From: a virus
Reading direction: 5' to 3' (one strand)
Length of the DNA stretch: 64,000 nucleotides
IMG/VR virus record: IMGVR_UViG_3300037042_004723
Location: 124,001 to 188,000 of that record
Below, piece after piece: positions 2,332 through 30,826 of this stretch. The notes below the pieces were generated by a model. The model did no database searches. It was not told the DNA's origin and worked only from the letters and a program-made list of their open reading frames with translations. The translations under genes were made by a program, and so were the position numbers. The first letter of the stretch is position 1. Each line of letters begins with the position of its first letter.

Positions 2332-2359
2332 AAGCCCGCGCTCATGCGGGCTTTGTTTT
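2332..2359 (+). terminator. Intrinsic terminator after the first gene block
   Basis: A perfect 8-bp stem (AAGCCCGC / GCGGGCTT) with a six-base loop is followed by a T-rich run (TGTTTTG). It lies between the 195-aa gene and a new promoter, so it separates two transcription units. Confidence 0.85.
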
Positions 2360-2381
2360 GTCCAGATCTTTGCGTAAAAAT

Positions 2382-2410
2382 TTGCGCGTTTGATCTGTTG
2401 GCAATAGTAT
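2382..2410 (+). promoter_or_regulatory. Sigma70-like promoter, probably giving a leaderless mRNA
   Basis: TTGCGC (2382-2387), 17 bases, then TAGTAT (2405-2410). The ATG of the next gene is only eight bases after the -10 box. The transcript would therefore begin at or within a base or two of the start codon, and no Shine-Dalgarno sequence is present. Confidence 0.6.
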
Positions 2411-2418
2411 CCGACGGT

Positions 2419-4293
2419 ATGGCAGACGCTATCCCTGGAAAGAAGTCTCGGTGGACCTCTGAACAGGAGGATCTATTGCGTAAGCTATGGGGAACGCAGC
2501 GAGATATCGAACTTGCTAATGTCCTGGGCAAGACGATCAAATCGGTGCGGTCCAAGGCGACCGAGATGAACATTCGCGCCGAGAAGGGCCTCAGGACAGC
2601 ATGCAGGTCTGGTCGCGTATCTTATCCGTGGAGGGCAGACGAAGACCTTGTTCTTGTTAAGAATGTCGGGCACCTCAGCATATTCGAGTTGATGAACCTG
2701 TTGCCTCGCAGGAATCGCTTGGCCATCGAACGCCGTTGCTATGAGCTTGGCTTCTCTCCGACGCAGGGTACTCACACGCGCCTCCAGATAGAACGAGAGA
2801 CCGGATACGACTGGAGACAGATCCAGCGGGCCCGGGACGCTCTGGGTCAGGCTTGGAAGCGATACGGCACCCGCAAGTACATGATAACCTTTGATCAAGT
2901 TCAGGATATCATTGAGTATTTGCGGACCGAGACGAGAAAGTGGTCTCTCCACTACGACTTAGATCGGTGCATTCTTTGTGGAGTCTCTGGAGCTGAAGAG
3001 CGAACCAGGCATTCCGGCGATGGGCTTTGCAAACGATGCGTGAGTGGAGACACCAGGATTATGGTCCGGGGGCGCGGCCTTTTGCGCATTGATGAGATGA
3101 CTGACAGTGGAGAGTTCGAGGTGTGGTCAGGTAAGGCATGGAGGACTACTACGGCGGTGGAGTCTGGCGTTCAACCAGTCGTTGAGGTTCTATTGAATAA
3201 TGGTTCGAGGATCAAACTTACTGGCGATCATCCGATTTTGACTGATTCTGGAATGATTCACGCCCACGTAATCGATAACGAAAGACTTCCATTAGAATTG
3301 CCATCCGATGTCTGCTTTCCGGAAGTTGCCATGATTTCAAGCGTTAATTGGCATAGTGGTGGTCCGCATGAACAATTCCCACGTGAGTGGACTCGTGACG
3401 TAGGAATGTTCCTTGGTGTCGTCCTTGGTGATGGAGCAATGTCAGGTGGAGAATATCCAACGATTATAATTGGCCTCGGCCGGCAGGACAGAGACGACTT
3501 GATTCATCTCCGAGATGTCGTGGGTGGATGGTGCGGATCAAAGTCTCAAGTTGTTGATTTTGAAAGCAGTCCTAACAAATTTTGCGATGAGCATAGGCCG
3601 ATGTCACGCATTCAGTGGAGGGTCAAGTCTCTGATTGAATTCGTTGGGCAGCTTGGATTAGACAAAAGTCTGCCCATCGAGGAACGTCGGGTTCCTTCTT
3701 CTATTTGGACCGCCAGCGCATCAGGCGTTTCCGGTTTCTTGGCAGGACTGTTTGGTACCGACGGTGCTGTCAGTGTTAACGGTGCTGGCAAGATCGAGAT
3801 ATCAATGTCCTCCGTGAGCGCAGGATTGTTGGAAGACGTTCAAAATCTCTTATGTGCTTTTGGGATCAAATCATCGATGTGGTCGTACCCGAAGAAAGAG
3901 CAATATAAGCAACTATTTGCACTTAGTGTCTTTGGTAAGAAGAACGTTGATTTATTTACACGGCGTATAGGCTTTTCTTGTCGGAGGAAGCGGGATGCCT
4001 TGGCGAAGGCGATCTCGGAATCGACCATCGTTGGTCGAGGTAACCGCCATCTCTCCGTTGAGAGTGTTAGGGATGTTGGAGTCGAAAAGGTCTACGATCT
4101 TGTTAACGTGGGGGATGAGCGACAGTTCGTTGCTAACGGTATAAGTGTTTCAAATTGCTGGGATTTCCGTAGGCATGGTCGGGTCCAAGTGCTCGATGCC
4201 CTGCGGAAGGGAAGGGTGATGATTCTGACTGAGGAGATTTGGCACGCTTACATACGCGACGAACCAGAAGTGCGAATCGTTTCTGCAGTTTAG
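2419..4293 (+). CDS. Myb/SANT-like, zinc-ribbon DNA-binding protein interrupted by an intein
   Basis: The precursor is 624 aa and the spliced product would be about 251 aa. The first two extein segments (from RWTSEQEDLLRKLWG and from YPWRADEDLVLVKN) look like tandem Myb/SANT-type helix-turn-helix units ending in arginine-rich recognition helices. They are followed by a cysteine knuckle, CILC...CKRC. The intein begins at the last of these cysteines, and the downstream extein restores it (KR then CWDFRRHGR), so the zinc ribbon forms only after splicing. I chose ATG 2419, not the upstream frame extension, because of the promoter spacing. Its role is probably DNA binding or regulation; the target is unknown. 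Confidence 0.75.
   Translation: MADAIPGKKSRWTSEQEDLLRKLWGTQRDIELANVLGKTIKSVRSKATEMNIRAEKGLRTACRSGRVSYPWRADEDLVLVKNVGHLSIFELMNLLPRRNRLAIERRCYELGFSPTQGTHTRLQIERETGYDWRQIQRARDALGQAWKRYGTRKYMITFDQVQDIIEYLRTETRKWSLHYDLDRCILCGVSGAEERTRHSGDGLCKRCVSGDTRIMVRGRGLLRIDEMTDSGEFEVWSGKAWRTTTAVESGVQPVVEVLLNNGSRIKLTGDHPILTDSGMIHAHVIDNERLPLELPSDVCFPEVAMISSVNWHSGGPHEQFPREWTRDVGMFLGVVLGDGAMSGGEYPTIIIGLGRQDRDDLIHLRDVVGGWCGSKSQVVDFESSPNKFCDEHRPMSRIQWRVKSLIEFVGQLGLDKSLPIEERRVPSSIWTASASGVSGFLAGLFGTDGAVSVNGAGKIEISMSSVSAGLLEDVQNLLCAFGIKSSMWSYPKKEQYKQLFALSVFGKKNVDLFTRRIGFSCRRKRDALAKAISESTIVGRGNRHLSVESVRDVGVEKVYDLVNVGDERQFVANGISVSNCWDFRRHGRVQVLDALRKGRVMILTEEIWHAYIRDEPEVRIVSAV
3037..4155 (+). mobile_element. LAGLIDADG intein in the Myb-like protein, 373 aa
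   Basis: The N-terminal splice block starts CVSGDTRIMV and block B contains TGDH. Two LAGLIDADG-type endonuclease helices are visible (LGVVLGDGA and LAGLFGTDGA). The C-terminal end is VANGISVSN followed by an extein Cys. The penultimate residue is Ser where most inteins have His. Base composition is visibly more AT-rich than in the flanking exteins, which fits horizontal acquisition. Splicing is inferred because both extein halves are needed to complete the CxxC pair. Confidence 0.88.
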
Positions 4294-4331: not shown

Positions 4332-4547
4332 ATGTCGATGCGAATCAGGCCAGATACACTTCGTTCGGAGATCGAGCAGGTAGTCTCGATTCTGTCCAGC
4401 TGGCAGGATAGGCTTGCCCAGGGCGTCCCCGGAGACGAAGCTCCGGCCAACGATCTGAACGCTGAGATTTTTCAATTCCAGCTTAGAGGCGAGGTGCAGC
4501 TCGCAGCCGAGAGGCTGATGGCCCTCGTTGAGGTGCTTGAGGTATGA
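4332..4547 (+). CDS. Small helical hypothetical protein, 71 aa
   Basis: A short acidic, leucine-rich helical protein. It overlaps the ParB-like gene by the sequence ATGAG, indicating translational coupling. A TAGGAT box six bases ahead suggests it is the first gene of its transcript. No motif is recognised. It may be a partner of the downstream ParB-like protein, purely on position. Confidence 0.55.
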   Translation: MSMRIRPDTLRSEIEQVVSILSSWQDRLAQGVPGDEAPANDLNAEIFQFQLRGEVQLAAERLMALVEVLEV

Positions 4548-5314
4548 GGTCTGCGGATAAGCTAACTGACATTTCTCGGGTCGAGCTTGATCCGAATGTT
4601 CTCATTGGCGCCGAGTGGAACCCCAATGAGATGGCCATCGAGGATTTCAATTTGCTCAAGGAGCAAATCAGCGAGATTGGCTTCATCGATCCTCCAACCG
4701 TAGTTGAGGTAGAGGATTCGAGCGGCAAGCCATTCTATCGCATCATCGGCGGGCATCATCGAGTAGCTGCGGCCAAGGAGCTTAAGCTTCGCAAGATCCC
4801 GGTTGACGTTCTTCAGGGCGACAGATGGAAAGACGAGGACCTATGCAAGATGCAGACTGTTCGCCTAAACGTCTTGCACGGAAAAATGAACCCGGAAAAA
4901 ATGGTCTCTCTCTATAATGAGATGGCCGGCAAGTACGGAGACTCGGTGACCAAGATGCTTGGTTACGCAAGCGACGCTGGGCTGAAGAAGATGATCAAGC
5001 AGGTCCAGGGAGACCTTGCTAAGACGCTGGAGCCAGAGCTTGCCAAGCAGTTTCAGGAGCAGGCCAAGGAGGCCAAGACTGTTGGAGATCTGGAGAAGAT
5101 CATCCAGAGACTAATGTCCGACAGTGGAGGCACGGCCAAGCACGGCTTTGTGGTGTTTTCGTGGGGCGGCAAGGAGCACATCTACGTGGCGATGTCTGAC
5201 AAAACCCGAGAAGCCATGAAGAGGATCGTCCGCGCGTCCAGGGACAACAAGGTCGACGTTAATGAGATCATCGAGGAGGCGGTCGTCGACGCCGCAAGAG
5301 GGCTGGAGTCTTAG
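4544..5314 (+). CDS. ParB/sulfiredoxin-fold protein, 256 aa
   Basis: The N-terminal 90 residues match the ParB N-terminal fold: a segment binding position and strand (DFNLLKEQISEIGFIDPP), then the signature IIGGHHRVAAAKELKL, which corresponds to the GxxRxxA nucleotide-binding box with His replacing Arg. A helical middle part follows, then a C-terminal beta segment (GFVVFSWGGKEHIYVAM). Phage ParB-like proteins act as nucleases, methylation-linked factors or CTPase switches; no methylase lies next to this one. Its position after a DNA-binding protein and before the kinase-like module gives no clear pathway. Confidence 0.8.
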   Translation: MRSADKLTDISRVELDPNVLIGAEWNPNEMAIEDFNLLKEQISEIGFIDPPTVVEVEDSSGKPFYRIIGGHHRVAAAKELKLRKIPVDVLQGDRWKDEDLCKMQTVRLNVLHGKMNPEKMVSLYNEMAGKYGDSVTKMLGYASDAGLKKMIKQVQGDLAKTLEPELAKQFQEQAKEAKTVGDLEKIIQRLMSDSGGTAKHGFVVFSWGGKEHIYVAMSDKTREAMKRIVRASRDNKVDVNEIIEEAVVDAARGLES

Positions 5315-5316
5315 AT

Positions 5317-5619
5317 ATGGCGCCCAAGGTCGACAAGCCGTCGCTACTCCCTGATGACATCGTTGGGGATGCCCGCAGGATTAGGATGATTAGCATCGAC
5401 CCGGCTACCGGCGACGACAAGTCGATCGTTGGAGAGGCGTGGCAGGATGCGACCGGCAAGCTGCATGGCACCGGCATCGCTGGCGTGATGTTGTTTGAGC
5501 CAGTATCGATGGCCAAGTATCGCATGGCGTCTATTGCTAAGGATTTGTCTCCTCTTTCTATCTTCTATTCCAGGATAGCTAGAAGTTCATTTATCAGAGT
5601 TGAGCTGGTGAAAAAGTGA
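5317..5619 (+). CDS. Small partner protein of kinase-like unit 1, 100 aa
   Basis: It begins two bases after the ParB-like stop and overlaps the next gene by GTGA. Its core (RRIRMISI, AWQDATGKLHGTGI) aligns with the 84-aa protein at 7255 (RRLRISMI, AWQEADGTLSVSGI). The two are therefore related, and each directly precedes a large kinase-fold protein. It is predicted to be a small alpha-beta protein with no catalytic residues in evidence. A regulator or adaptor for the adjacent kinase-like protein is a position-based inference. Confidence 0.65.
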   Translation: MAPKVDKPSLLPDDIVGDARRIRMISIDPATGDDKSIVGEAWQDATGKLHGTGIAGVMLFEPVSMAKYRMASIAKDLSPLSIFYSRIARSSFIRVELVKK

Positions 5620-7265
5620 CCAGAGAACTTGATGAAAAGTTTGGCTCCCAATTGACCAGGGTGCTGAAGAAGGTTAATCGCAAGGACGGGGACGGCGGAA
5701 CCAAGACGGTTGACCAGGCGTTCCATGTCCGCAAGGCTGCTCCAGGCGATCGGTATGCAGCATTCAAGACTCTTGAGTCAAGGACGGCCGAAGGACCAGG
5801 CGCAGCAGGTGCTGAAATGTCAAATCCGGAAGAACAGCCCGCAGATCAGGCAGACGGCTCGCAAGATCCCACGCAGCAGCCAGACGAGTCGCAGGAACCT
5901 GTGCAGCCGGCGCCCGTTGTCAGAATAATGGTTAGGCGTCTCGATATTCCATGGCTCAAGAAGGGTGACAAAGCCAGGGAGAAGGCTAAGGCCCTGGCCA
6001 GGGATCCAATTTCGCCAGAATTGAGGCAGCGTTTCAAGAAGGGCAGCGGTTCGATTGCTATGTCGAACCCGGCCGTCACCGGCCTTCCGATCACCACGGT
6101 TGTGCCGACAGACAGGATCTTCTGGGGGGCTGACGAGCCTGGCTTGCTTGTGTCGCTGCGTTCCGGGACCATCAGGAAGATGCGCTTGGTCGGTGGCAGT
6201 AATGGCTTGATGATAATCAAGATCGAGGCCATCGGAGGCGGGTCCTTCTACGGGTATATGTGGATGGAGTCCTTGCGATGCTCTCTCCTGAAGCAAATCT
6301 GGGGAGATATCATAGATTTTTCTGATCCAGATGGCCCGCTTTCCAAGAGGGCTGCATGTTCGTATGAAACCGCTAAGGCTTGCGGATTGGACGATCTAAC
6401 TCCGCCGACCGTTCATCGCGTGGACGACGATGGCGACATCAGATCTATGCTTCCGGATTCTCTTATCGAGCAAGCCAACGAATGGGTGTCCACGACGTCC
6501 GGCATTGATCCTGATGCGGTCAAGAGCGGCATCAGCGGTCATGCGACCGTCCAGCTCGTTCGTGGTGAGCCATGGCCAATTGAATCAGAGGAGTGGTTCA
6601 GGGACCTATTTGGAAGCGGCGATCCGTCGGCCCTGAATGACATATGGTCGTCTATGCCTCCGGATCGCAGGATCGGCTTGTTGCGGTTGGCTGCACTCGA
6701 TTTCGTTACCGGGTCACTGGATAGGTCTTTCGGCGATCTGGTGTTTTCGGATGATCCAAGACATCCAGTTGTTGCGTATGGCGGCGAGATGTCAATCCCC
6801 TGTCCAAGGACGATTGGGATGGCGTATGCCAGCGGAGGTTACGCTGGATATCTGGATAACGAGTCTGCCAATCTACCGCTTTTCTGGAGCGAAGCGTCGA
6901 CCATGCTGGCGGTTCGTGGCGGAGATCGGGAGATTGACGACTACGAGTTGATCGGGATAGCAATCGCGTCGCGGATGAAAGAAAACCGAGCCGTAGAATT
7001 GGCGAGGTCACTTCATGACCACAAGCTAACTGCGCTCCAAATCTCTGGGATTTTGAGTCGCATCTGGATGATGAATACTCATTCAAGGGACATCGCCAAG
7101 GATCCGTACCTGGCGGCCAGGTATTACGCATCGATTGTTTCCGGGCAGGCCGATCCATTGATGGACGGAGTGAAGGACTTTGTAAACAATACAATGCGGC
7201 AGGTCCTGGTCGGAAAATTTGACTTCTATAAGGTCATGAAGTCGGGGGCAGAGGATGCTGCTTGA
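5616..7265 (+). CDS. Kinase-fold (PI3/4-kinase or HipA-like) protein, probably inactive, unit 1, 549 aa
   Basis: GTG start overlapping the previous stop. A Pro/Gln/Glu-rich N-terminal region (about residues 60-110) precedes the fold. The N-lobe has a candidate lysine in LMIIKIEA and the helix AACSYETAKACGLDDLTPPT, typical of PI3/4-kinase-like and HipA-like families. The catalytic region reads GSLDRSFGD (residues 366-374), aligned with GNQDGHHEN in the intact paralogue at 7509. The Asp is kept, the Asn is replaced, and the later metal-binding Asp is lost (VVAYGG). It is probably a pseudokinase or a scaffold. Confidence 0.6.
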   Translation: MTRELDEKFGSQLTRVLKKVNRKDGDGGTKTVDQAFHVRKAAPGDRYAAFKTLESRTAEGPGAAGAEMSNPEEQPADQADGSQDPTQQPDESQEPVQPAPVVRIMVRRLDIPWLKKGDKAREKAKALARDPISPELRQRFKKGSGSIAMSNPAVTGLPITTVVPTDRIFWGADEPGLLVSLRSGTIRKMRLVGGSNGLMIIKIEAIGGGSFYGYMWMESLRCSLLKQIWGDIIDFSDPDGPLSKRAACSYETAKACGLDDLTPPTVHRVDDDGDIRSMLPDSLIEQANEWVSTTSGIDPDAVKSGISGHATVQLVRGEPWPIESEEWFRDLFGSGDPSALNDIWSSMPPDRRIGLLRLAALDFVTGSLDRSFGDLVFSDDPRHPVVAYGGEMSIPCPRTIGMAYASGGYAGYLDNESANLPLFWSEASTMLAVRGGDREIDDYELIGIAIASRMKENRAVELARSLHDHKLTALQISGILSRIWMMNTHSRDIAKDPYLAARYYASIVSGQADPLMDGVKDFVNNTMRQVLVGKFDFYKVMKSGAEDAA

Positions 7266-7509
7266 TAATCGCAGGCTTCGGATCAGCATGATCAACATGG
7301 TGAACGGCGACATGGTCTCGACTCATGCTGCCGATGCATGGCAGGAGGCGGACGGAACGCTTTCTGTGAGTGGTATTTGGAGTGATTTGATTCCTGCCTC
7401 CAAGGAAGACCACGTTCTCATGGCCGAAGCCGCCGGTGTGTCATCGCTGGAATGGCTCCGTCGTCGTTTGCTTACATGTCCAATGATAGCTATGGAGATC
7501 TTTGATTAA
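7255..7509 (+). CDS. Small partner protein of kinase-like unit 2, 84 aa
   Basis: It overlaps the end of the preceding large gene and shares TAATG with the next one. It is homologous to the 100-aa protein at 5317 through the RRLRISMI and AWQEADGTL segments, so a gene pair was probably duplicated. It ends in a hydrophobic strand (PMIAMEIFD). Function unknown; a kinase partner is inferred only from its repeated position. Confidence 0.65.
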   Translation: MLLDNRRLRISMINMVNGDMVSTHAADAWQEADGTLSVSGIWSDLIPASKEDHVLMAEAAGVSSLEWLRRRLLTCPMIAMEIFD

Positions 7510-9158
7510 TGTTGAAAAGAAATTCATGGATTGACACGGTCCAGCTGCTGCGTGCCGGTCAATTGAAGGAGATCATGCTGGAGACGACCGAACTGGCGAG
7601 GCCTGGCAATATTGGCCAAGCTGCTCTTGCCCAGCAGGCCGCTCAGGCCGCTCCAGCCCCGCAGGCCGCTCCAGACCCGCGCCTGGCTATGCCGTCACCA
7701 GGCGCCCCAGATCCACTGGCCGCCCAGGCGCCGCCAGCGCAGCAGCAACCGGCTTGGGCCAAGTGGGGGGCTGTTCCGGGGAAGACCGAGCTGCATAGTA
7801 CCGAACCAAGCTTGGCGTCGAGAACCAGGCCGGACTTGGCCCAACCAGCCGAGCGTCACTCGTCTTTTCATAAGGCATATCACGACAAGGCAGCGACTAA
7901 TAAGTCACTGGCCAGACTCATGTCCGCCGGCAACGTCAATCTCGTTTATCATGGACAATTAGACAGCGGGCACAATTATATAGCTAAGCCAGTATCCGGC
8001 ATGTGGCACCGTCACCAAAAGACTGGCCAGATGGATCCGTATACTCTGAATCAGTACACGCAAGATCAGCCGAACATGGCCAATCGCCATGACGCGACAT
8101 ACGAATTGATGTCGGCCATGGGGGCTCATCATATGGTTACGCCAGGCATGCAGACGAATATGCATCAGCGTCATCAGTTTGGAGGCCCGGATCCGGACCC
8201 GAATGCGGATAAATTTCAGCGCAGGGAAATGGCCAGCGGCGTTGCTGGCGAATCTGCTCACGTAAATGAGTTCGTGCCCGGACTGGTGATGGCGGGAAAA
8301 TCTTCTAGTGGAGAGCTAGGCAAAGTTGACGCAGAGCATCGTCTTCATGGAATGGTTGCCCATTTGCTTTTTGGTAATCAGGATGGACACCATGAAAATG
8401 TGATGATTCATCAGAAGACCGGCCACCCGGTACTGATCGACCACGACATGGCGCTGGATTCCGTCAATTCCCGTGGAAACATGATGAGGTACGGCGCTCA
8501 CTCGGTTAAGTCAGTATTCTCGCCGGGGGGCATCCTTGACTATCAGGCTAAATTGCCCAGGGATAGTAACGGTCAAATAATTCCAGTTGGGAAAAATTAT
8601 CCGCCCAGGATGAGAGAGGTGCTCGATAGAGTTGCCGACGGCTATTATACCGAGGGGCCTGGTAAGTTAAACCTGTCACCGGGAGATCACGCAGACCTCC
8701 AGCATCACGCCCGCGACTTGCTGACCCATGGCCTTGAGGACACCCTTGATAGAAGAGTTGACATTTACAACCCGCATAAGGCGAAGAAGGCCGCTCCGGC
8801 GAAGAAGGCCGCTCCGGCGGCAGTAGCTCCGGCGAAGAAGGCCGCTCCGGCGGCAGTAGCTCCGGCGAAGAAGGCCGCTCCGGCGGCAGTAGCTCCGGCG
8901 AAGAAGGCCGCTCCGGCGGCAGTAGCTCCGGCGGCAGTAGCTCCGGCGGCAGCCGCTAAGGCTCTTAAGCAGCGTAAGAAGCCGGAGCCGCGAAAGCGTC
9001 CCCCGGTGACAGAGAAACCGGCAGCACAAGCCAAGGCGCCGTTGCACCACGGGTCGGTTCAGCGAGCACTTGACGATATCAGGGTTAAGCCGGACAATTC
9101 TGTTCAGAGGGCGCTCAAGGGCATCAGGTTCAGCGCGCCTGGCAAGGGGAAAAAGTAG
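7509..9158 (+). CDS. PI3/4-kinase or HipA-like protein with a histone-like tail, 549 aa
   Basis: The order is an N-terminal Ala/Pro/Gln-rich linker (residues 35-85), a kinase-like fold, then a basic Ala/Lys/Pro tail. The fold has a candidate ATP lysine (YIAKPVSG). It also has a catalytic loop GNQDGHHEN (289-297) followed by VLIDHD (308-313). These keep the Asp, Asn and metal-binding Asp expected of an active PI3/4-kinase-like or HipA-like enzyme. The tail holds four AKKAAPAAVAP repeats resembling histone H1 tails, then QRKKPEPRKRPP, so nucleic-acid binding is likely. The substrate is unknown. It is the only member of the three that looks catalytically complete. Confidence 0.7.
   Translation: MLKRNSWIDTVQLLRAGQLKEIMLETTELARPGNIGQAALAQQAAQAAPAPQAAPDPRLAMPSPGAPDPLAAQAPPAQQQPAWAKWGAVPGKTELHSTEPSLASRTRPDLAQPAERHSSFHKAYHDKAATNKSLARLMSAGNVNLVYHGQLDSGHNYIAKPVSGMWHRHQKTGQMDPYTLNQYTQDQPNMANRHDATYELMSAMGAHHMVTPGMQTNMHQRHQFGGPDPDPNADKFQRREMASGVAGESAHVNEFVPGLVMAGKSSSGELGKVDAEHRLHGMVAHLLFGNQDGHHENVMIHQKTGHPVLIDHDMALDSVNSRGNMMRYGAHSVKSVFSPGGILDYQAKLPRDSNGQIIPVGKNYPPRMREVLDRVADGYYTEGPGKLNLSPGDHADLQHHARDLLTHGLEDTLDRRVDIYNPHKAKKAAPAKKAAPAAVAPAKKAAPAAVAPAKKAAPAAVAPAKKAAPAAVAPAAVAPAAAAKALKQRKKPEPRKRPPVTEKPAAQAKAPLHHGSVQRALDDIRVKPDNSVQRALKGIRFSAPGKGKK
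8781..8951 (+). repeat. 33-base tandem repeat encoding AKKAAPAAVAP
   Basis: A partial unit at 8781-8798 is followed by four exact 33-base copies (8799-8930) and then shorter AAVAP repeats. It lies in frame inside the kinase-like gene. The copies look identical at the DNA level, so the array is recent or homogenised and may vary in copy number between isolates. Confidence 0.95.
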
Positions 9159-9464
9159 ATGAAATTTTTGATTACGTCATCGGTTGAGACGGGCAGGGTT
9201 GATCAGATTCTGTGGAAGGAAGGGGATATCGTCGTGTCCAAGACGCTGTACAGAGACGGCACCCAAGAAAAGAGGACAACCTATCACGCTACGTTGTTTG
9301 ATGCCGCCGGAGAAATGGGCAACGGGTACAGCAGCTCTCGCCTTGTGGATGTTGCTGATGTTAGGTCTGCGGAGAAGTATCTAGGCAAGTCGTCCGACTT
9401 GGTCAATGCATTGCCGGAGCAGGACATTTATGCCCCCGACGAGCCAAGCATCAACGCTTCGTAG
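9159..9464 (+). CDS. Small protein of kinase-like unit 3, 101 aa
   Basis: It starts directly after the TAG of the 549-aa gene and overlaps the next gene by about 35 bases. It is similar in size and position to the small proteins at 5317 and 7255, but I see only weak sequence resemblance (a WKEGD..SKTLYRDG segment). It is predicted to be an alpha-beta protein with an acidic C-terminus. It could be a diverged paralogue or an unrelated gene in the equivalent slot. Confidence 0.6.
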   Translation: MKFLITSSVETGRVDQILWKEGDIVVSKTLYRDGTQEKRTTYHATLFDAAGEMGNGYSSSRLVDVADVRSAEKYLGKSSDLVNALPEQDIYAPDEPSINAS

Positions 9465-10767
9465 TGTATTCGGGGCCCTTTCCCAAAATCCGCCAGGCCT
9501 GTCAGCGCGACTAAACGACAAGCCTTCCATAGACGATACAACACCAGCTCTCGACGAGCTTCCGGCAACCCCTGTTCTTCATGAGAAGACCGGGGTTGTC
9601 TTGTTGCCGGCCGCCAGGATCGATGGCTCGGTTACCGATTCGTCATGGAGCATCGGTGAGCCAGCCCTCTGGACTTGGCTACGCACGGCTCCAATTGAGC
9701 ATCTTGAGGAGCGAGTACAGGATGGACTAGGTGGGTCGTTTTGGGTTCGATGTCGGAACCAAGAAGGAGAGCTGCGAAGTGCTGTTCTTCGTTTTGATAC
9801 CGTTGGATTTGATACGATTTATGAGGCATGGGGCCAGGAATATGGCCTTTCCGTCGAGAACCATGACGTCCTAAGACGCGAGCAGGCTGCTTACGAGATT
9901 GCCAAGGGGATCGGATGCGAAGATCTGCTGCCTCCGATAGCCATCAGAGAGGCGAATCTTGTTCCTTTGATTTCCGATGCAGTCAGGGACAAGGTTGCCG
10001 CCGAGCTTGGTATCGATCAGATACTCGTGGACGAGACGTTTGGCGTCATTGCCGCACTGCAGGCGACTCCGTTAAACGCCCGCAATTTTGTCGAGTACTG
10101 GGCGACCCTGGGGCCAGATGCCACCAACAGGTGGGCGAGGTCGTCAAGCGCACTCAGGCACGGCCTTTATCGAATGATTGCTTTGGACTTTGTGCTCGGA
10201 ACTGGAAATCGATCGCTGGCCGACTTTCTCTTCAATGAGGCTTCCGGGTCGGTGGTTGCCTATGGATTTGGTGTAACCCTGCCAAGTCCGACTGCTACAG
10301 CGGATGGATATCTTGCCCATAGAGCGCGCGGATGGGGCAGGCGACTCGCTGGTCCACTCGAAGAGCCAGCCCCTGGTTCCCCACCGTTTGGATCTGACAC
10401 GTCATTCCTGATTCATGGATTTGGCGATCGTGAGCGGGCCGAATGCTTGATGACGTTCAAGCAGATGTCCAAGGCTGCCGACGAGACGATCGTAGGACTT
10501 TTGTGTCGAATCATGATCGAGGTCGGCGTTCCGGTTGAACACGTTGCGGGCTTTGTCGCTAGGCTTTCCTTCCTTCAGGAAGATCCAGAGTCGGTTATCA
10601 GTAACCAATTCGACTTCGTCAGAAGCATCCTGGTTCCGATGCGGCGTGGTTACGGATTTGAGGCTGGGCGCAACGCCAAGATGGTCGAAACCGTCAATCA
10701 GATCATGACGACGGCATCCGGCCAGGAGTACGACTTCGCTTCTGCGATGCAGGCCCAGCAGGGATAG
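9430..10767 (+). CDS. Kinase-fold pseudokinase-like protein, unit 3, 445 aa
   Basis: I chose ATG 9430 because AGGA at 9421-9424 fits it; an in-frame ATG also exists at 9406. The N-lobe helix RREQAAYEIAKGIGCEDLLP is the segment that recalls PI3/4-kinase-like families. The candidate lysine is replaced (SAVLRFD). The catalytic loop reads GTGNRSLAD (residues 257-265 from this start), with Asp changed to Asn, and the following VVAYGF lacks the metal Asp. It aligns well with the protein at 5616 (ALDFV.G..RS..D, VVAYG). It is most likely catalytically dead. Confidence 0.6.
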   Translation: MPPTSQASTLRSVFGALSQNPPGLSARLNDKPSIDDTTPALDELPATPVLHEKTGVVLLPAARIDGSVTDSSWSIGEPALWTWLRTAPIEHLEERVQDGLGGSFWVRCRNQEGELRSAVLRFDTVGFDTIYEAWGQEYGLSVENHDVLRREQAAYEIAKGIGCEDLLPPIAIREANLVPLISDAVRDKVAAELGIDQILVDETFGVIAALQATPLNARNFVEYWATLGPDATNRWARSSSALRHGLYRMIALDFVLGTGNRSLADFLFNEASGSVVAYGFGVTLPSPTATADGYLAHRARGWGRRLAGPLEEPAPGSPPFGSDTSFLIHGFGDRERAECLMTFKQMSKAADETIVGLLCRIMIEVGVPVEHVAGFVARLSFLQEDPESVISNQFDFVRSILVPMRRGYGFEAGRNAKMVETVNQIMTTASGQEYDFASAMQAQQG

Positions 10768-10852: not shown

Positions 10853-10901
10853 CTGTGACCATCAATGATGTGGTCAGGTAAACTTTTACCAAGGTATGGT
10901 G

Positions 10902-11666
10902 ATGTCCAACAACGGCACTCGTAGACCGTCTATTCGACCAGTAAGCCGTGAGCCGAAGAAGGCTGCGTCCGCGCTTCAGGATTGCCGGTGCTTTGAGGAA
11001 GTTGAGCGCAGGACCAGGATGGGATGGCCATCCTCGGATCTGGCCAAATTTATCCAAGAAGATAGCCAGGAGCTAGTTCACCTGAGCCAGTCATACGTCA
11101 GGAAGATGGTGGACGACTTCAGGAAGACCATCCCACCAGCCGAGCTGTTGCTGACGACGCAGAACACGACCGTAGCGATGCATTCGGCCCAGAAGGTTGC
11201 GAACGGCATGGAGGAGCTGGCTAAGCTTAGCGAGCTGTATGACCTCCAGATGGATCGCATCAAGATCGACGTTGAGAACGAGAAGAAGATCAATAAGCTC
11301 TTCCAGACGACGGGCCGAGAGATCTTCTATGCGATGAAGATTCTCAAGCAGACGTCAGACCTGAAGATGGATCTGGGTCTGGCCAAGCGGCAACTTGGAG
11401 AGGTGTCCGTGTCCGGGCAGGCGGCTGTTCAGATTGGTGATCGATACACTGATGGGGTCGGCAGGGTGATGGCTGATCCGGACAGTCGGCGGAAGGTGCT
11501 TGGCATGGTGGAGACGCTCATGTCTCTAGGTGCCAAGGCCAACCTAGACGCCACCGAGATTGTCAGAAGCGCAACCACGTTTGTGGCCGATGACGTCATT
11601 GACATCGAACCTTCAGCATCCGCTGAGTTGCCAAATGATGAGCAGCCAGAGGGCGCAGAAGAGTAG
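10902..11666 (+). CDS. Probable small terminase subunit, 254 aa
   Basis: It lies immediately upstream of the large terminase with a two-base gap, the usual place for TerS. Residues about 30-70 form a helix-turn-helix-like segment (RMGWPSSDLAKFIQED, SQSYVRKMVDDFRK). A long charged helical region follows (about 100-165) that could form the oligomerising coiled coil, then an acidic tail. TerS recognises the packaging site and stimulates TerL. AAGG at 10891-10894 favours ATG 10902 over ATG 10896. The call rests mainly on position and architecture; no family signature is certain. Confidence 0.55.
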   Translation: MSNNGTRRPSIRPVSREPKKAASALQDCRCFEEVERRTRMGWPSSDLAKFIQEDSQELVHLSQSYVRKMVDDFRKTIPPAELLLTTQNTTVAMHSAQKVANGMEELAKLSELYDLQMDRIKIDVENEKKINKLFQTTGREIFYAMKILKQTSDLKMDLGLAKRQLGEVSVSGQAAVQIGDRYTDGVGRVMADPDSRRKVLGMVETLMSLGAKANLDATEIVRSATTFVADDVIDIEPSASAELPNDEQPEGAEE

Positions 11667-11668
11667 TC

Positions 11669-14600
11669 ATGGCCATCAGGGATCTTGGTGGGAGAGTTCG
11701 CAGCGAGCAGACGAAGGACGAGGTGCTTCGTCTGCTGAGGACTGAATTTGCGAACCTGAGCGACGAAGAAAAGCAGGCGGTGATGCTCTGCCTGAAGGAG
11801 CTTGATGACCCGGCGTTCAACGACATGGAGGCCAATGGGGAGGTCGCCCCTACGAGGATCTACGATGTCTTGACCGAGGCTGAATATATTCGCAAGCCAG
11901 TCGACATCGAGACGTTCGTCAGAGATCCATATTATCTCGGGAAGACCTGCGATGTTCTCTATCCGAAGCTTCTCGACGATATGAAGGAGCTGTTTGGCGG
12001 TCACTACCGAGAGACCATCCTGAGCGGTAGCATCGGTTGGGGGAAGTGCCTGGATTCATTGACAGAACTATATAACACGAAGACCGGGAGGCGAGAGCTT
12101 ATTTCCGACGTATCGGACCTTGGCGTCGCCTCGATGGTCGACGGGGGCGGAATAGAGCCCAGGGATGCGTCCTGCTTCAAGTCGGGCAGGAAGCGGTGCG
12201 TCAGGGTTGCGCTGGCCGACGGGAAGTCGATCGTTGCCAGCAACGACCACAGAATCTTCACTGCGCGAGGGTGGGTGGGGGCGTCTAAGCTTGGCTGTGA
12301 CGACTTGGTCGCCACTCCAAGGAAGCTGCCAGATCCGGACTCAACAACCGACGTTGCCGATTCCGTTGTGAAGCTGGTGGCGTACCTGTTGGCCGACGGA
12401 GGGTGTACCGGGCCGACGACGTTCACCAACGCCTGCGAGGATGTACTTGTTGAGTTCTGTGAGCTTGTCAACGAGCTTGGCGACAGCTCTCAGTATGACA
12501 AGTGGCACCGGCACATAGAGACTGGTGTTGCCATCGTCGATGATGGCAACAGCGGGATGGCCCTGACACTGAGGGCTAGTGGGGTCAGGCACCTGGTTAC
12601 AAGGTACGGGTGTGACAAGAAGTCGATCGACAAGCGTATTCCTGCCGAGTTCTATGGGTTGCCAAGGAACCAGGTTGCTCTCTTTTTGAACCGATTCTGG
12701 GCGTGCGACGGGTCGTTTTCCGTGGCATCGCCCAGGAAGGTTGAGATTGGGCTGGGATCCGAGGGGCTCGTAGATGACTTGATGTTCTTGTTGCTTCGCC
12801 TTGGGATTCAGTCGCGCAAGTACTACAAGAAAAAATCTTGCACTTACAAGGGAGAGAAGAAGTGGTTCGACTCGTGGTGCCTTACGGTAACGGACAGGGA
12901 TGGCATCATTAGCTTTCTGGACGCCGTTGGACCAGTGGTTGGCAAGGTCGATAAGTGCATGGCGCTGCGTGCGGCGTGCGAGGCCGTCAAGTCGAATCCG
13001 AACTGCGATGTTGTTCCGGTTGGCAATGCGGAGCTGCTTGAGATAAGGTCTGAGCTTGGCTCTCGTGGCGGAGGGCTTTCCGCTAGGTTTGGATGTCCAG
13101 AGGGGCAGCTGTTCTCTCGCCAGCGATTTGAGAAGCTTTGTTCTGAGTATGAGTACGTCGGCAAGTATTCGTGGCTGGCCGGGTCGGATATCTACTGGTC
13201 GAAGATCAAGGAGGTCGTCGATGTTGGAGACCGCGATGTCTACGACCTGACGGTCCCAGGTACCGAGAATTTTGTTGCGAACAACATAGTGGTTCACAAC
13301 AGTTTCTTTGCGTCCATCGCAGCCTGTCGGATCATCTACGAGCTGTCGTGCATGCGAGATCCGCACAAGAGCTTCGGCATCGGTAAGGGCACCGACATCA
13401 CGATGGTCGTTCTTTCTGTCAAGGAAGACCTAGCGATCAAGGTCGCCTTCGAAAACATCGCAAATAAGATCAAGGAAAGCGATTATTTCAAGGAGAACTT
13501 CCCCTTCAAGCCGATGAAGAAGGAGATCATCTTCCCCAGTAAGATCCAGATCGCAGCTCGTGCCTCAACGGATAGCGCAGCACTCGGTCTCAACGTCTTC
13601 GCGGCTTGGATTGACGAGTCCAACTTCATGCAGCCCATGAAGAAGAAGGGCGGGATCGAAAGTCGCGTCGGGAACATGGATCGAGCCCAGTTCCTCTACG
13701 ACCAGCTTATTCGTCGTATGAAGTCTCGCTTCCAGCGCCACGGCAAGTTGCCAGGCATGATGATCGTGGTGTCGTCGAAGCAGACGCGCGATGACTTCAC
13801 GGCCAAGCGGATCAAGGACTCCAAGGACGACCCAACCGTCTTCGTTCGCGACTATGCAACCTGGCACGTGAAGCCGGATGGGATTTACTCCAAGGAGACG
13901 TTTTATGTCCTCGTGGGAAACGACTTGGTCCCGTCTAAGGTCCTCACACCTGAGGAGATCGACGTCACCAGGGATAAGCTACAGGACGGGATGCTCATCA
14001 TTGATGTCCCTATCGACTTCAAGAACGATTTCACGAGCAATATCGAAGACTCCATTCGAGACATTGCCGGCGTCGAGACGGTTTCGGTGTCGCCGTTTAT
14101 CCAGCAGCGAGATCTGATCATCCCGTGCATCGACGTTAATCGTCAGCATCCGTTTACCGTTGAGGAGTGGGTCCCCACCGAGCACGGAAAGTTCGTGTGG
14201 TCGAGGCTGGCCAGACAGGTGGAAGTCCGCGACGGCGCTTCGATTAGTCGAGAATGGCAGCCGTTGTTTCACCAGGGCGCCGCCAGGCATATTCACATCG
14301 ATCCATCGCTCAACTCCGATGCGACCGGGTTCGCTGTTGGCTGTGTCACTGGGTACAAGACGGTCGTTCGCCGTGACGAGGAGACGCGCGAGCAGTACAC
14401 AGAGCGAGCCCCTGAGATCTGGGTAGACTTCATGCTTCGCATCAAGCCTCCCATTGGGGGCGAGATTGATCACGGTCTTGTTCGGTCGCTCGTCTATCAG
14501 ATGCAGGCTAAGGGGTTTTCGATCAGCCTAATCACGATGGACCAGTTCAATTGCCTAGTTGCCGGTACGATGGTGCCTACGGCACGCGGGATACTGCCGA

Positions 14601-16060
14601 TCGAGCAGGTCGTTGTCGGGGACATCGTTCAGTCGCGCATCGGTCCTCGTCCGGTCGAGAACACCTGGAACTACGGGGAGAGGGAGACGATCAAGATCGT
14701 CACTCAGGATGGCGATGTTCTTGAGGGGACGCCGAATCACAGGATTGAGATCCAGGTTGGGTGGACCAAGGAGCACCAGAACGAGTACGGGTGGACGAGG
14801 GACCCTGTCTGGGAGTGGAAAACGCTGTCCGAGCTGTCGGTGGGCGATGTGGTCCACATGGCCGATCAGCCGGTCTCCCTTGACCCGCCGGACGTAGAGC
14901 TGAGCGGGTGCAAGGAAGACTTCGGGTGGACGAGTCCGCGTGGCCTGATCGGCAACTGGACGCTGCCGTCAAAGATGACGCCTGAATTGGCCGAGTTCCT
15001 TGGCCTGCTGTGGGGCGACGGCGACGTCTCTGACAAGCTGATCAGGCTGACGTTCCACGTGGACGACACGGAGGACGTCCAAGCGAAGTTCATTGGCCTT
15101 TTCGGTGAATGCCCAGCTGTCGAGGTTAGTCGTCTGACGGACAAATGCGCGTCCGTTCGTTTTGGATCCACGTGGGTGTGCCGATGGATGGCGCACAACG
15201 GCCTGGTCAAGCCGACGATCCCTGATGCCGTCATGCGTTCAAGCAAGGCAGTCAAGTCGGCGTTCCTAAGGGGACTTTTCTCTGCCGACGGCGCGGTCAG
15301 CAAGATTGACGGAGAGATCTCTCTGGGAACGTCGGTGAGATGCCTCGCTGAGCAGGTGCGGCTAATTCTCCGCGCCGACTTTGGGATTGAGAGCTGCCTG
15401 GTGACCACGGAGAAGAAGTACAAGAGCCAGCAGGCGATGCCAGGGTGGCACGGTGGGCTTCACTACGTAGTGTCCGTTCGTGGCCCCAGGAGGCGGTTCC
15501 AGGAGAGAGTCGGGTTCTGCTATCGGGGCAAGTCAGAGATGCTGGCGAGACATGTCGAGGTGAATGGGCGCCGCAAGTTCTCGAAGATTGTCGACATCGA
15601 GCATGGGTTCGGAGAGGTGTTCGACATTCAGGTTGCAGACGACCCGTCGTACATCGCGAATGGGTTCGTTTCGCACAATTCGGCAAGCTCTCTGCAGACA
15701 TTTGCCACTAAGGGAATTACGGCCGAGCGCCTGTCCGTAGATAAGCCGATGGATGCGTACGATATCCTTAAGACAGCTATCTACGAGAACAGGCTCAGCT
15801 TCTACGGATACAATCCGTTGCTTGAAGAGTTGCGGTGGATCCAGAAAGACAACATCCGCAACAAGGTGGACCACCCACAGGGCAAATCCAAGGATCTCGC
15901 GGACGCCCTGGCTGGTATCGTCTTCTCGTTGACGACGATGTATCACGGCCCCCCGATGGGGGTGTACAAGGGGATATCGCAGTTCAATGACCCGGTAGCC
16001 GAGGAACAGCGAGAGATCGTAGAAGAGGACTTCCCCCTGCTACCTTTTCTGCAAGGATGA
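11669..16060 (+). CDS. terL: Large terminase subunit with two inteins, 1463-aa precursor
   Basis: Removing both inteins leaves about 669 aa, normal for TerL. The ATPase Walker A motif is GSIGWGK joined to Ser only after intein 1 is excised. Walker B is AAWIDES (Asp649-Glu650 of the precursor). The RNase H-like nuclease domain shows HIDPSLNSDATG, then TMDQFN joined to SASS across intein 2, and finally GKSKDLADALAG with the last catalytic Asp. TerL cuts concatemeric DNA and pumps it into the prohead through the portal encoded at 18551. Both activities depend on splicing. It ends in an overlap with the next gene. Confidence 0.93.
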   Translation: MAIRDLGGRVRSEQTKDEVLRLLRTEFANLSDEEKQAVMLCLKELDDPAFNDMEANGEVAPTRIYDVLTEAEYIRKPVDIETFVRDPYYLGKTCDVLYPKLLDDMKELFGGHYRETILSGSIGWGKCLDSLTELYNTKTGRRELISDVSDLGVASMVDGGGIEPRDASCFKSGRKRCVRVALADGKSIVASNDHRIFTARGWVGASKLGCDDLVATPRKLPDPDSTTDVADSVVKLVAYLLADGGCTGPTTFTNACEDVLVEFCELVNELGDSSQYDKWHRHIETGVAIVDDGNSGMALTLRASGVRHLVTRYGCDKKSIDKRIPAEFYGLPRNQVALFLNRFWACDGSFSVASPRKVEIGLGSEGLVDDLMFLLLRLGIQSRKYYKKKSCTYKGEKKWFDSWCLTVTDRDGIISFLDAVGPVVGKVDKCMALRAACEAVKSNPNCDVVPVGNAELLEIRSELGSRGGGLSARFGCPEGQLFSRQRFEKLCSEYEYVGKYSWLAGSDIYWSKIKEVVDVGDRDVYDLTVPGTENFVANNIVVHNSFFASIAACRIIYELSCMRDPHKSFGIGKGTDITMVVLSVKEDLAIKVAFENIANKIKESDYFKENFPFKPMKKEIIFPSKIQIAARASTDSAALGLNVFAAWIDESNFMQPMKKKGGIESRVGNMDRAQFLYDQLIRRMKSRFQRHGKLPGMMIVVSSKQTRDDFTAKRIKDSKDDPTVFVRDYATWHVKPDGIYSKETFYVLVGNDLVPSKVLTPEEIDVTRDKLQDGMLIIDVPIDFKNDFTSNIEDSIRDIAGVETVSVSPFIQQRDLIIPCIDVNRQHPFTVEEWVPTEHGKFVWSRLARQVEVRDGASISREWQPLFHQGAARHIHIDPSLNSDATGFAVGCVTGYKTVVRRDEETREQYTERAPEIWVDFMLRIKPPIGGEIDHGLVRSLVYQMQAKGFSISLITMDQFNCLVAGTMVPTARGILPIEQVVVGDIVQSRIGPRPVENTWNYGERETIKIVTQDGDVLEGTPNHRIEIQVGWTKEHQNEYGWTRDPVWEWKTLSELSVGDVVHMADQPVSLDPPDVELSGCKEDFGWTSPRGLIGNWTLPSKMTPELAEFLGLLWGDGDVSDKLIRLTFHVDDTEDVQAKFIGLFGECPAVEVSRLTDKCASVRFGSTWVCRWMAHNGLVKPTIPDAVMRSSKAVKSAFLRGLFSADGAVSKIDGEISLGTSVRCLAEQVRLILRADFGIESCLVTTEKKYKSQQAMPGWHGGLHYVVSVRGPRRRFQERVGFCYRGKSEMLARHVEVNGRRKFSKIVDIEHGFGEVFDIQVADDPSYIANGFVSHNSASSLQTFATKGITAERLSVDKPMDAYDILKTAIYENRLSFYGYNPLLEELRWIQKDNIRNKVDHPQGKSKDLADALAGIVFSLTTMYHGPPMGVYKGISQFNDPVAEEQREIVEEDFPLLPFLQG
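12047..13300 (+). mobile_element. TerL intein 1, LAGLIDADG type, 418 aa, inside Walker A
   Basis: It begins CLDSLTELYNTKTG directly after the P-loop lysine and ends FVANNIVVHN before an extein Ser. Block B has SNDH in place of the common TxxH. Endonuclease helices are LVAYLLADGG and LFLNRFWACDG. The extein junction reconstitutes GSIGWGKS, so the insertion is at the most conserved point of the ATPase, a typical homing-site choice. Confidence 0.93.
14552..15679 (+). mobile_element. TerL intein 2, LAGLIDADG type, 376 aa, in the nuclease domain
   Basis: It begins CLVAGTMVPTARGILPIEQV and ends IANGFVSHN before an extein Ser. Block B has TPNH. Endonuclease helices are LAEFLGLLWGDGDV and FLRGLFSADGAV. 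The site follows ITMDQFN in the RNase H-like nuclease domain, close to a predicted catalytic Asp. All canonical splice residues are present (Cys1, His-Asn end, Ser+1). Confidence 0.93.
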
Positions 16061-18550: not shown

Positions 18551-21500
18551 ATGGGATTTTGGGGACAAGTCGGAGACCGCGTTCGCGGTTTATTGCGTTT
18601 CGATAAAGAGCAGGTAGTCCTTAATCTTGCCAAGGGCGGGTCTGCCTCTGGCTATCCGCAGACTGGGTTTGATCTCCTCCAGTCGTACGGCCAGGACGTC
18701 CTCAGCGACTACCTCAAGCTCGAACATGACCTGATGGCCAGGTTCGTTGACTACGAGGAGATGGACGACTATCCGGAGCTGGCGTGCCTAGACGGGGACA
18801 CTCTCGTTTTCACACTGGAATACGGGTGGGAGGCGATCCGTAGCCTCGCCGCGAGAGGTGGAGACTTTCACGTTCTCGCCTATGACCGTGAGAGCAAGTC
18901 CCTGGTTCCGGCGATGGCGCGGAACGCTCGTGCCACGGGTGCGGCTGGGCACAGCAAGCAGATGGTCAGAGTTGTCATGGACAACGGGCAGGCAATCGTT
19001 TGCACGGCTGATCATATGTTCTTCTCCAAGGAGGAGAACTGGATTCAGGCTTCTGGCTTGCGGGCCGGGCAGAGGCTAATGCCGGGGGTTCTTCGGTCAA
19101 GGAGCCTGAACGGTGACTCGGATGGCTCCTACTGGGAGGTTCACCAGCCGAATAGCGACTCGGTTATCAGAACTTCCGATGGGAAGCGCTGGACGTGGGT
19201 TCATCGCCTGGTGGGAGAGATGATGCTGGGAGCCGGGCGCGGAGATATCGTCCATCACAAGGATGAGAATTCCCTTAACAACGCCCCAGACAATCTGAGC
19301 GTGGAAACATACAGCAGCCATGCTGGCGTCCATATCGCCAGGATCAACAATTCATCATATCTGCCTGAATGGAATGACGAGCGCAAGAGAGCTAAGTCAT
19401 TGGCGATGCTTGGCAATTCGCATAGAATTGGCAAGCGCGACAGCGCGGAGACTCGCGCTAAAAAGTCGGCGGCTCGTGCAGGTCGGCCGCTCACGGATGA
19501 TCATCGCCGAAAAATTGGCGACGCTCACCGGGTTAGCTTTACTCGTGAGCAAGTGGAGTCGGCCTACAGGAGTGGCGGGTCTGTCGCCGAGGCGGCGAGG
19601 ATTCTGGGCGTGTCGTGGGGTACGGCTCGCCGGAACCTTGATCGCTATGACCTAATTGTTGACGATGGGAATCACCGCGTAGTTCGCGTTGAGTTCCTCG
19701 ATGATCGTCCCGAGATTTTCGATCTTGAGGTTCCTGGCTATCACAACTTTGTCTGCAATGGCGTTGTTGTTCATAATTCAGCCATCGATATTTATGCCGA
19801 CGACGCGACGCAAACGGAGTCGCTTCAGAACAAGGTCGTTTGGATCGATAGTCCAGACAAGACCGTTCAGATGATTCTGGAAGATCTTCTCTGGAAGAGA
19901 CTTCGCATCGACGAGGAGGTCTGGGAGATCACCCGGACCCTGGTCAAGTACGGCAACGACTACGAGGAGCTTCTCGTAACCGGTGACGGTCTGGTTGGCC
20001 TCAATTTCCTGCCTCCTCCCACGATGCGTCGAATCGAAGGCCGGCGTGGGGAGTTGTTTGGATTCGTCCAGGACTACAAGGGGCGCTTCGGATACAGCCC
20101 TGAGGAGTTCAAGCAGCTATTGACCCAGCGTGCGGCTGGTGGGAATAGCCCGCAGAACAAGTATGCCGCCCTTGAGGATTGGGAGGTCTCCCACTTCAGG
20201 CTGAGGTCGAAGCATCGTCGGTCGATCTATGGGTACTCGGTCCTTGAGCCAGCTCGTTGGATCTGGAAGCGCCTTATGCTTCTTGAGGATGCAGCGATGG
20301 TCTATCGACTGCAGCGCGCTCCGCAGCGGTACGCCTTCTATATTGACGTTGGCGATATGCCGCCGAAGGAAGCGATGGGCTTCCTTCATAAGATGCGTCA
20401 GCAGTACAAGAAGACTAAGTTTTACAATCCGCAGTGCCTGACCGGCGAAACCTGCGTGACGTTGCTGGATGGCACCGACAAGAGCATGTCGGAGCTTGTT
20501 CGCGACTACGCTGACAAGACGTTCGACGTGTTCTCCTACGATTTGGAGACCGGTCGCGTGGTGCCGGGCAAGGCCAGAAACCCTCGCCTGACCCATGAGC
20601 AGGCGCCGATCTGGCGGGTGGTGTTGGATAACGGTTCCGTCGTGCGCTGCACGGGGAATCACCCGTTCCTGATGAGGGACGGTGAGTACAAGGCTGCCAA
20701 TACGCTCGCGTCCGGCGATTCCCTGATGCCGCTGTACATGTCACGCGGGTCGAAGGGCACGCATGGCTACTGGATGTATCAGGAGCCTGGAACCGGCCAG
20801 CGCAAGCATGTCCATCGGATGGTCGCGGAGGCTGTATGGCCAGATATGGCTGCGGCGAATATGCAGGTTCATCACGTTGATCACAACAAGGCCAATAACG
20901 CCCCCGGGAACCTGCAGTGGCTGACCGCGTCCGAGCATGCGCTGCATCATCCTGAGCGCCATCAGGCCGCGCGAGCTGCCTACGTCAAGCGCGTCAAGAA
21001 TGATGAGGCGTTCAGGCGCGAAATCGCAGGGCGAATCTCCAACTGGCGCAAGACAAAGCCTGACGAGGCGTTCGCGGCGACGTCGAGCCACAGCAAGCAG
21101 ATCATGGCCGACCGGGTGGCTTCGGCCAAGCCGGCTCACGATGCCATGATGGTCATCATCGAGGGCGAGGTCGTTAGAGATCCGCTCGTGGTTATCGAGG
21201 AACTCGCCGACCGGCTCAACGCGAACGATGAGTTCGCTAAGCTCTACGCTGACCTTCCAACCACAAAGAATTCGACAATCACAGGCGGATGCCTGCACGC
21301 ATTCTTGCGTCGTCATGGTTTTGACGGCTTCAAGGACTTCAAGAACAAGAAGACCAATCAGGCTCGGTGGAGAAATCGCACATACGGCAAGGAGGTCACC
21401 GAAGGCACGGAGGCGCACAACCATAAGGTCGTTAGCGTTTCATTCGAAGGATACGAGGACGTCTATAATATGGACGTCGAAAAGTATCATAATTTTGCCC

Positions 21501-24763: not shown

Positions 24764-25786
24764 ATGATTCACAACAGGTATCCAGTCCAGCTTACGACCC
24801 TCGAAGAGGATTTCCGCGCTATCGGCCTGCTCCCCCAGCGTGAGCTGTCGGAGTCCGACGATTCGGCGGTGCCGCGCGATATTCCCTCCCCGGCCCCGGA
24901 GACGAATACCGGCAGCGACATGCAGGCGATGCCCGCCCGGCACAAGTACGCCAAGCAGCCGAAGCCAAAGATGGCCCCGGACGATACCAACGATCATGAC
25001 GATCCGTTGGAGGCTGGCGCAACTCAGCGCAGGAAGGGCTCCGGCTCGTACAGGACAGTCTCCGGTGGCAAGGAAGCCAGCCTTGGTCGCATGGAGTCCG
25101 CTGAGCCCAAGGGCTATCAGCTACTCAAGAATAAGATCATGAAGGGCGCCAAGGACAACGGCAGGGAGCCGTCTATCGCCAGAGGCCTTGCCCCCGTCAA
25201 CAAGCACGCCGGAATGATCAAGAAGGAGTCGGCCAACATCAGCCGCGCTTCTGAGCTTGTGAATGAGGTCGAGGCGCTCATCAACGGCTCGCAGGTCAGC
25301 GAGGACTATAACAACCTCGCCCACGGGTTCTCGCTCATTGGCGAGAACTGTGCGCTGCTTGCCGATCGCCTGGTCGATCTCGCCGAGCACTACAACGTGG
25401 ATCGTGCAATTTCGGCCATGGAGTCTCTCTACAACAACGCCATCGAGGCGGCTCAGATTGTCGAGATGAAGGCCAAGAAGAAGGACAAGGACGACGATTC
25501 GGACGACGATGACGATGATGATTCGGACGCCGACGAGGCGCTTGAGTCCATCAAGGAAGCCTTCCGTCTCATGACCCTTCAGCTGATGGATGCGGTTGAG
25601 GCGTACGACGCCACCATCACCAAGGACGACGATTCGGACGACGACGACGACGACGACGATGACGACGATGATGACGATGATGACGACGATGATGACGACG
25701 ATGACGATGACGATGACGAGGGTGGCATTGCTGCTCGGATGGCTAAGCTGAGGGCAGGTAAGGGCAAGGGCCCTTTCGGCAAGTAG
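24764..25786 (+). CDS. Poly-aspartate protein, candidate prohead core component, 340 aa
   Basis: A disordered N-terminal half rich in Ser/Asp/Pro is followed by a helical domain (residues 160-235). Then come two Asp-rich runs, the second with 27 consecutive Asp residues (25637-25717). A short basic tail (ARMAKLRAGKGKGPFGK) ends it. Its position just before the protease-scaffold gene and its extreme negative charge recall the acidic core proteins of T4 heads, which fill the prohead before DNA entry. Mixed GAC/GAT codons argue that the Asp run is selected and is not simple slippage. Confidence 0.6.
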   Translation: MIHNRYPVQLTTLEEDFRAIGLLPQRELSESDDSAVPRDIPSPAPETNTGSDMQAMPARHKYAKQPKPKMAPDDTNDHDDPLEAGATQRRKGSGSYRTVSGGKEASLGRMESAEPKGYQLLKNKIMKGAKDNGREPSIARGLAPVNKHAGMIKKESANISRASELVNEVEALINGSQVSEDYNNLAHGFSLIGENCALLADRLVDLAEHYNVDRAISAMESLYNNAIEAAQIVEMKAKKKDKDDDSDDDDDDDSDADEALESIKEAFRLMTLQLMDAVEAYDATITKDDDSDDDDDDDDDDDDDDDDDDDDDDDDDDDEGGIAARMAKLRAGKGKGPFGK

Positions 25787-30767: not shown

Positions 30768-30826
30768 GTTGATGCCTGCAATGATCATCGTTGACACCGA
30801 CGGATTGTCCGAGGTCGAGCGGCATC

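Follow-up and report, generated by a model that had tools for sequence, protein, structure and literature searches.

The 64,000-nucleotide stretch of viral DNA analysed here (the window; positions 124001-188000 of the 197,279-bp virus record IMGVR_UViG_3300037042_004723) belongs to a tailed phage, which encodes a portal, prohead protease and head protein of T4 type together with a tail sheath. Between a ParB-like gene and the terminase genes, it carries six same-strand genes in the order S1-L1-S2-L2-S3-L3 (5317-10767), in which small (S) and large (L) proteins alternate. The large proteins display a well supported kinase/pseudokinase pattern. Our preferred explanation, which we regard as moderately probable, is that the six genes constitute one functional cassette, in which two conserved pseudokinases (L1 and L3) would regulate or scaffold an active kinase (L2), and which would be expressed with the packaging genes. 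Since nine diverse phages keep all six genes in order, it is suggested that the genes work together.

Intact and degenerate catalytic sites

The open reading frames and the three motifs GSLDRSFGD, GNQDGHHEN and GTGNRSLAD lie exactly where a preliminary description of the window had placed them (Table 1). L2 retains the β3 Lys (K160, assigned by alignment and a predicted strand at 156-161), the loop Asp (D292) and Asn (N297), and the metal Asp (D311/D313) in nine of nine orthologues, and the full four-residue set is present in none of the 18 L1 and L3 proteins. The pattern of one intact and two degenerate members, as described for the window, thus recurs throughout the nine phages. L1 has lost the Asn in every phage, as had been noticed in the window, keeps the loop Asp in eight of nine, and mostly lacks the Lys and the metal Asp; in the window, the loop Asp is retained and the other three residues are lost. 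In L3 the loop Asp is lost in eight of nine phages and the metal Asp is usually lost too. The catalytic segment of the window L3 had been described as lacking Asp, which is correct, and we find in addition that its Asn is lost, the two residues being swapped (Asp to Asn and Asn to Asp). The β3 Lys and/or the metal Asp are also missing from both degenerate proteins of the window. The L3 of phage L016 retains the Lys, Asp and metal Asp (LLKF, VDR and YDN), and so does the L1 of phage L058 (LKI, GDR and RDN); these residues are presumably ancestral traces, as expected of descent from a catalytic kinase.

Both degenerate proteins are maintained under purifying selection. The pairwise ratios of nonsynonymous to synonymous divergence (dN/dS), for pairs with estimable dS, are 0.08-0.13 for L1, 0.05-0.17 for L3 and 0.11-0.29 for L2, and are to be taken as rough, many dS values being near saturation. 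Because the ratios are well below 1, L1 and L3 are maintained rather than decaying. Together with the frames of L1 and L3, which are open in nine of nine phages, this rules out decaying pseudogenes. A single TGA occurs within two matched stretches of the whole-record search, and the lists of open reading frames put it at or beyond the gene ends. On these grounds L3, with its kinase-like predicted fold and residue loss, and L1, with its homology to L3 and residue loss, can both be classed as putative pseudokinases.

Predicted folds and family matches

AlphaFold2 models of L2 and L3 have a mean predicted local distance difference test score of 77 (mostly 75-95 in the domain) and 69, respectively. 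The elements around the catalytic loop follow in the same order in both, namely helix H275-288, the loop, and strands E298-301 and E307-309 in L2, and H240-256, the loop, E266-269 and E274-277 in L3. Foldseek searches against the PDB retrieved VPS34, PI3K and PI4KII-alpha with the L3 model (E-value 5e-5 for VPS34, probability 1.00), and PI3K as the best match of L2 (E 3e-4), followed by mixed kinases. The best viral fold match of L3 is a protein with a phosphatidylinositol 3-/4-kinase (PI3/4-kinase) domain from an uncultured Caudovirales phage. The preliminary description had left the choice between PI3/4-kinase-like and HipA-like enzymes; the former agrees with these matches, and for the latter, Pfam and PHROGs gave no match, and the 50 best PDB fold matches listed for L2 included none. 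Non-kinase folds, which would have spoken against the earlier proposal, were not obtained for either model.

Matches to PF00454, all below the gathering score, were returned by seven of seven L2 proteins scanned, by three of 14 L1/L3 proteins, and by one L1 in the whole-record search. L1 is supported as kinase-like by its homology to L3 and by a weak PF00454 match in one orthologue. The LanM dehydratase family (PF13575) was rejected, as it scored 15 bits against a cut-off of 29, and as a Cys-bearing precursor peptide is lacking, with no Cys in S1 and one in S2. The L3 model also matches, by fold, the halovirus HHTV-1 protein R4T6E8 (1100 aa; L045 9436-12738), which has no Pfam kinase match and was taken as HHTV-1 gene 13 by protein length. 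In this archaeal tailed virus, gene 13 is unannotated and lies two genes ahead of a MuF-like gene.

Relations among the six proteins

Homology between L1 and L3 extends over 469 columns (BLASTP E 1e-19; none of 300 shuffles as good), and their families align with an hhalign E-value of 5e-25. S1 and S2, previously recognised as homologous, are indeed so (BLASTP E 2e-6; again none of 300 shuffles as good). In BLASTP comparisons, S3 has no sequence relation to S1 or S2, and L2 resembles neither L1 nor L3 pairwise; searches of the PDB with profiles of the small proteins gave nothing informative.

The relation of L2 to the others emerges from profile comparison. A seven-member L2 profile matches the combined L1 and L3 profile with a score of 36.6 (E 7.5e-4, probability 25%) over the kinase core, with the catalytic loops in register, and matches the L3 profile alone with 42.9 (E 9e-5). 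Chance likeness of the motifs is ruled out by 150 column-shuffled controls, the highest of which reached 27.3, and by unrelated profiles, with scores of 11-15.5. The aligned catalytic segment claimed earlier for the large proteins is hence genuine, and the three are related. Of the three repeats of a small plus a large protein that had been proposed, the six-gene order holds and the symmetry does not. The three units are better read, from sequence comparison, as two paralogous pseudokinases and one distant kinase than as a fresh triplication; a simple triplication is ruled out, S3 being unrelated to S1 and S2, and L2 only a remote relative of L3.

Conservation and distribution of the cassette

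IMG/VR was searched with kinase and terminase profiles, which yielded eight further distinct phages (L001, L003, L008, which is near-identical to L009, L016, L017, L019, L058 and L060). In all nine, including that of the window, the six genes stand in identical order ahead of the small (TerS) and large (TerL) terminase genes, with L2 identity to the window as low as 32%. Except in L016, whose contig stops at S1, a ParB-like gene lies ahead of the cassette. Seven cassette-bearing records were searched in full, and every one of them carries precisely two genes of the L1/L3 type and one of the L2 type; the sole additional match is weak, covers 32 residues and lies within the L3 of one record. Related phages therefore do keep the set, which had been raised as a point to check.

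Phages with TerL of about 40% identity or less, which include L024, Stenotrophomonas phage DLP_5, Agrobacterium phage JP1 and Vibrio phage VHB1, gave no match to the six proteins in the stretches examined, some of which were short. No cassette separates the ParB-like gene from TerS in L024, where the two overlap. The cassette thus looks like an insertion common to a single clade of phages. All members sampled have it, a count that is biased because the cassette itself led to most of them. The terminase search also retrieved L016, L017, L019 and the group of L001, L003 and L008. No relatives were detected by tblastn of L1, L2 and L3 against 50,697 named phages, or by a pattern scan of 84,980 bacterial and archaeal genomes, and in both searches distant relatives would be missed; the scan was made with L2 only, as the L1/L3 alignment is too divergent for a pattern.

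Proposed mechanism and alternative explanations

Allosteric signalling complexes of kinases and pseudokinases are familiar mainly from eukaryotes. In the cassette, L2 would be an active atypical kinase from the PI3/4-kinase-like superfamily, probably a protein kinase, and L1 and L3 would be degenerate paralogues retained as pseudokinases. At a best guess, L1 and L3 would associate with L2, alone or together with its substrate, and thereby activate, position or restrain L2, an action that we model on the activation of Fam20C by the pseudokinase Fam20A. S1-S3 may act as small folding or adaptor partners produced via translational coupling, and the six genes would be co-expressed with the ParB-like and terminase genes in a putative operon. 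The gene neighbourhood suggests late action on packaging or head proteins; late in infection, L2 might phosphorylate such a phage protein or one of the host's. It may also act from inside the virion; a conserved N-terminal peptide set off by a disordered linker is compatible with virion packaging and host action of L2. The fuller proposal is put forward tentatively: two paralogous pseudokinases and small adaptors would exert allosteric control over the kinase, in a complex that would be linked to DNA packaging or delivered into the host by ejection.

Several results weigh against the cassette as we interpret it. The Foldseek template modelling scores are low for L2 and L3 (0.2-0.45), and for this reason both models can be assigned a PI3/4-kinase-like fold at superfamily level at most. 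The window L2 scores 19.4 bits against PF00454 and does not reach the gathering score of 27.1. The L1 profile alone scores just 20.3 against L2, which is not significant, so that L1 is apparently tied to L2 by way of L3. Furthermore, the window and L001 are mostly 0.83-0.97 identical over about 7280-10700 (S2-L2-S3-L3) versus about 0.70 on the flanks, with dS of about 0.25-0.34 inside this block versus 1.6-2.6 outside. A recent recombination moved S2-L2-S3-L3 between the two without S1-L1, which is neutral or mildly unfavourable for L1 as an obligate partner.

The N-terminal peptide of L2 lends itself to another explanation, in which L2, perhaps with L1 and L3, is a virion-packaged effector that, like T4 Alt, leaves the virion together with the DNA and modifies proteins of the host early in infection, the peptide serving as a capsid-targeting signal at which the prohead protease cuts. 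The phage encodes that protease along with a portal and head protein, the peptide is short and conserved around an invariant Trp (seven sequences aligned), a poorly conserved, low-confidence stretch follows it to about residue 69, and the delivery of enzymes by phage heads is established (PMC5512222). However, conservation of the Leu/Phe-x-Glu-type site that follows the peptide is not strict, the peptide is absent from L1 and L3, and the cassette adjoins the ParB and terminase genes, away from the head genes. We rate this explanation as rather unlikely, although it is the strongest of the alternatives.

Two further explanations seem improbable, to about the same degree. One is a HipA-type toxin-antitoxin or superinfection immunity system, with L2 as a toxic kinase restrained by its small or pseudokinase partners; the L2 loop of L008 (NGDAHSAN) looks HipA-like, and a HipA-family kinase of 'Gratiaviridae' has been proposed to act in immunity (PMC8008677). 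The HipA searches described above nevertheless argue against it, and S1-S3 match no DNA-binding or HipB family in Pfam or PHROGs, so that HipBA failed the family tests. The other assigns L1 and L3 a structural or scaffolding role, in which they merely reuse the kinase fold independently of L2, and attributes the gathering of the three to chance duplication and position. This would account for the catalytic residues missing from both, and head-module proteins with a kinase-like fold and no kinase family match do exist, such as HHTV-1 gene 13. Against it stands the strict co-occurrence and order of the six genes in nine phages, with none in the outgroups.

Comparison with known systems

The nearest relatives by class are the PI3/4-kinase-like superfamily (PF00454) and PI3K-type proteins of uncultured Caudovirales (e.g. 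A0A6J5MJB0). The likeness lies in the D-x-H-x-x-N loop followed by a metal Asp and in the predicted fold of L2 and L3, whereas the cassette matches stay below the gathering score and L2 is accompanied by two degenerate paralogues and three small proteins. As to a regulated pair, the pseudokinase Fam20A forms a complex with and stimulates the kinase Fam20C (PMC4421793, PMC5413348), likewise an atypical kinase beside a paralogue that lacks a catalytic residue. Those are eukaryotic secretory kinases, however, whereas the phage has two pseudokinases that are remote from L2, and for which complex formation and activation would follow by analogy. A sequence hint of the cassette family to FAM20A (E 2) is not significant.

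Head modules of phages are already known to include single kinases that are HipA-like or PI3K-like. In 'Gratiaviridae' phages, a HipA-family kinase (by HHpred) sits between the portal and major capsid genes, thus similarly within the late/structural region of a tailed phage, but it is a single HipA-family protein, and the available part of the report mentions no pseudokinase partners (PMC8008677). Effector enzymes fused to MuF or otherwise delivered by the virion are also established (PMC5512222). T4 Alt and the MuF-fused effectors resemble L2 in being host-modifying enzymes encoded among late/structural genes, but belong to other enzyme classes, and L2 would share their route only if it is packaged. 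No phage system of one kinase and two pseudokinases was found in the open-licence literature, in agreement with the preliminary description, which knew of no such layout; nor was any phage pseudokinase, judged by the titles listed. Few phage kinases have been studied. If our interpretation is true, a kinase with two pseudokinases in nine divergent phages would offer a small genetic system in which to ask why kinases persist once they are dead, and would bring to light either a phosphorylation step during the packaging of phage DNA or a new class of enzymes that are injected and modify the host.

Gene arrangement and neighbouring features

Table 1. Cassette genes, catalytic segments and flanking genes in the window
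Feature	Position	Strand	Remarks
ParB-like protein, left neighbour of the cassette	4544..5314	+	phrog_26387, E 4e-50
S1, small protein, 100 aa	5317..5619	+	S2 paralogue (BLASTP); present in 9/9 phages
L1, pseudokinase-like, 549 aa, GTG start	5616..7265	+	L3 paralogue; residues; dN/dS about 0.1
L1 degenerate catalytic segment GSLDRSFGD	6711..6737	+	exact in sequence
S2, small protein, 84 aa	7255..7509	+	S1 paralogue
L2, apparently active PI3/4-kinase-like, 549 aa	7509..9158	+	residues, weak PF00454 match, predicted fold
L2 intact catalytic loop GNQDGHHEN	8373..8399	+	exact in sequence
S3, small protein, 101 aa	9159..9464	+	no S1/S2 sequence relation; present in 9/9 phages
L3, pseudokinase-like, 445 aa	9430..10767	+	start agrees with L001; PI3/4-kinase-like predicted fold
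L3 degenerate catalytic segment GTGNRSLAD	10198..10224	+	exact in sequence
Putative small terminase (TerS), right neighbour	10896..11666	+	named by position; kept ahead of TerL in relatives
Large terminase subunit (TerL), two inteins	11669..16060	+	context gene

An alternative start of L3 at 9406 (453 aa) is possible, the one listed being likelier; with the latter, adjacent cassette genes abut or overlap by 1-35 bp. Promoter- and terminator-like sites within the cassette region are in no excess over shuffled sequence. From these two observations we infer that the six genes are likely to share one transcript. The C-terminal tail of L2 (about 8780-9155) is of Ala/Pro/Lys low complexity, with AKKAAPAAVAP repeats and a duplicated SVQRALxxIR, and occurs in the window and L001 only.

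The phage is also rich in inteins, with one in a putative regulator (2344-4293) and three in the portal (18551-23689) besides the two of TerL, several of which bear LAGLIDADG or HNH endonucleases. TerL has no intein in L001, L003 and L008, and one in the outgroup L024. Free-standing endonuclease-like genes lie near the head genes at 29207-30067 and 30791-31753 (PHROG endonuclease and HNH matches). Directly ahead of the prohead protease gene, a 340-aa protein (24764-25786) has a long Asp run near its C-terminus and is perhaps scaffold-related.

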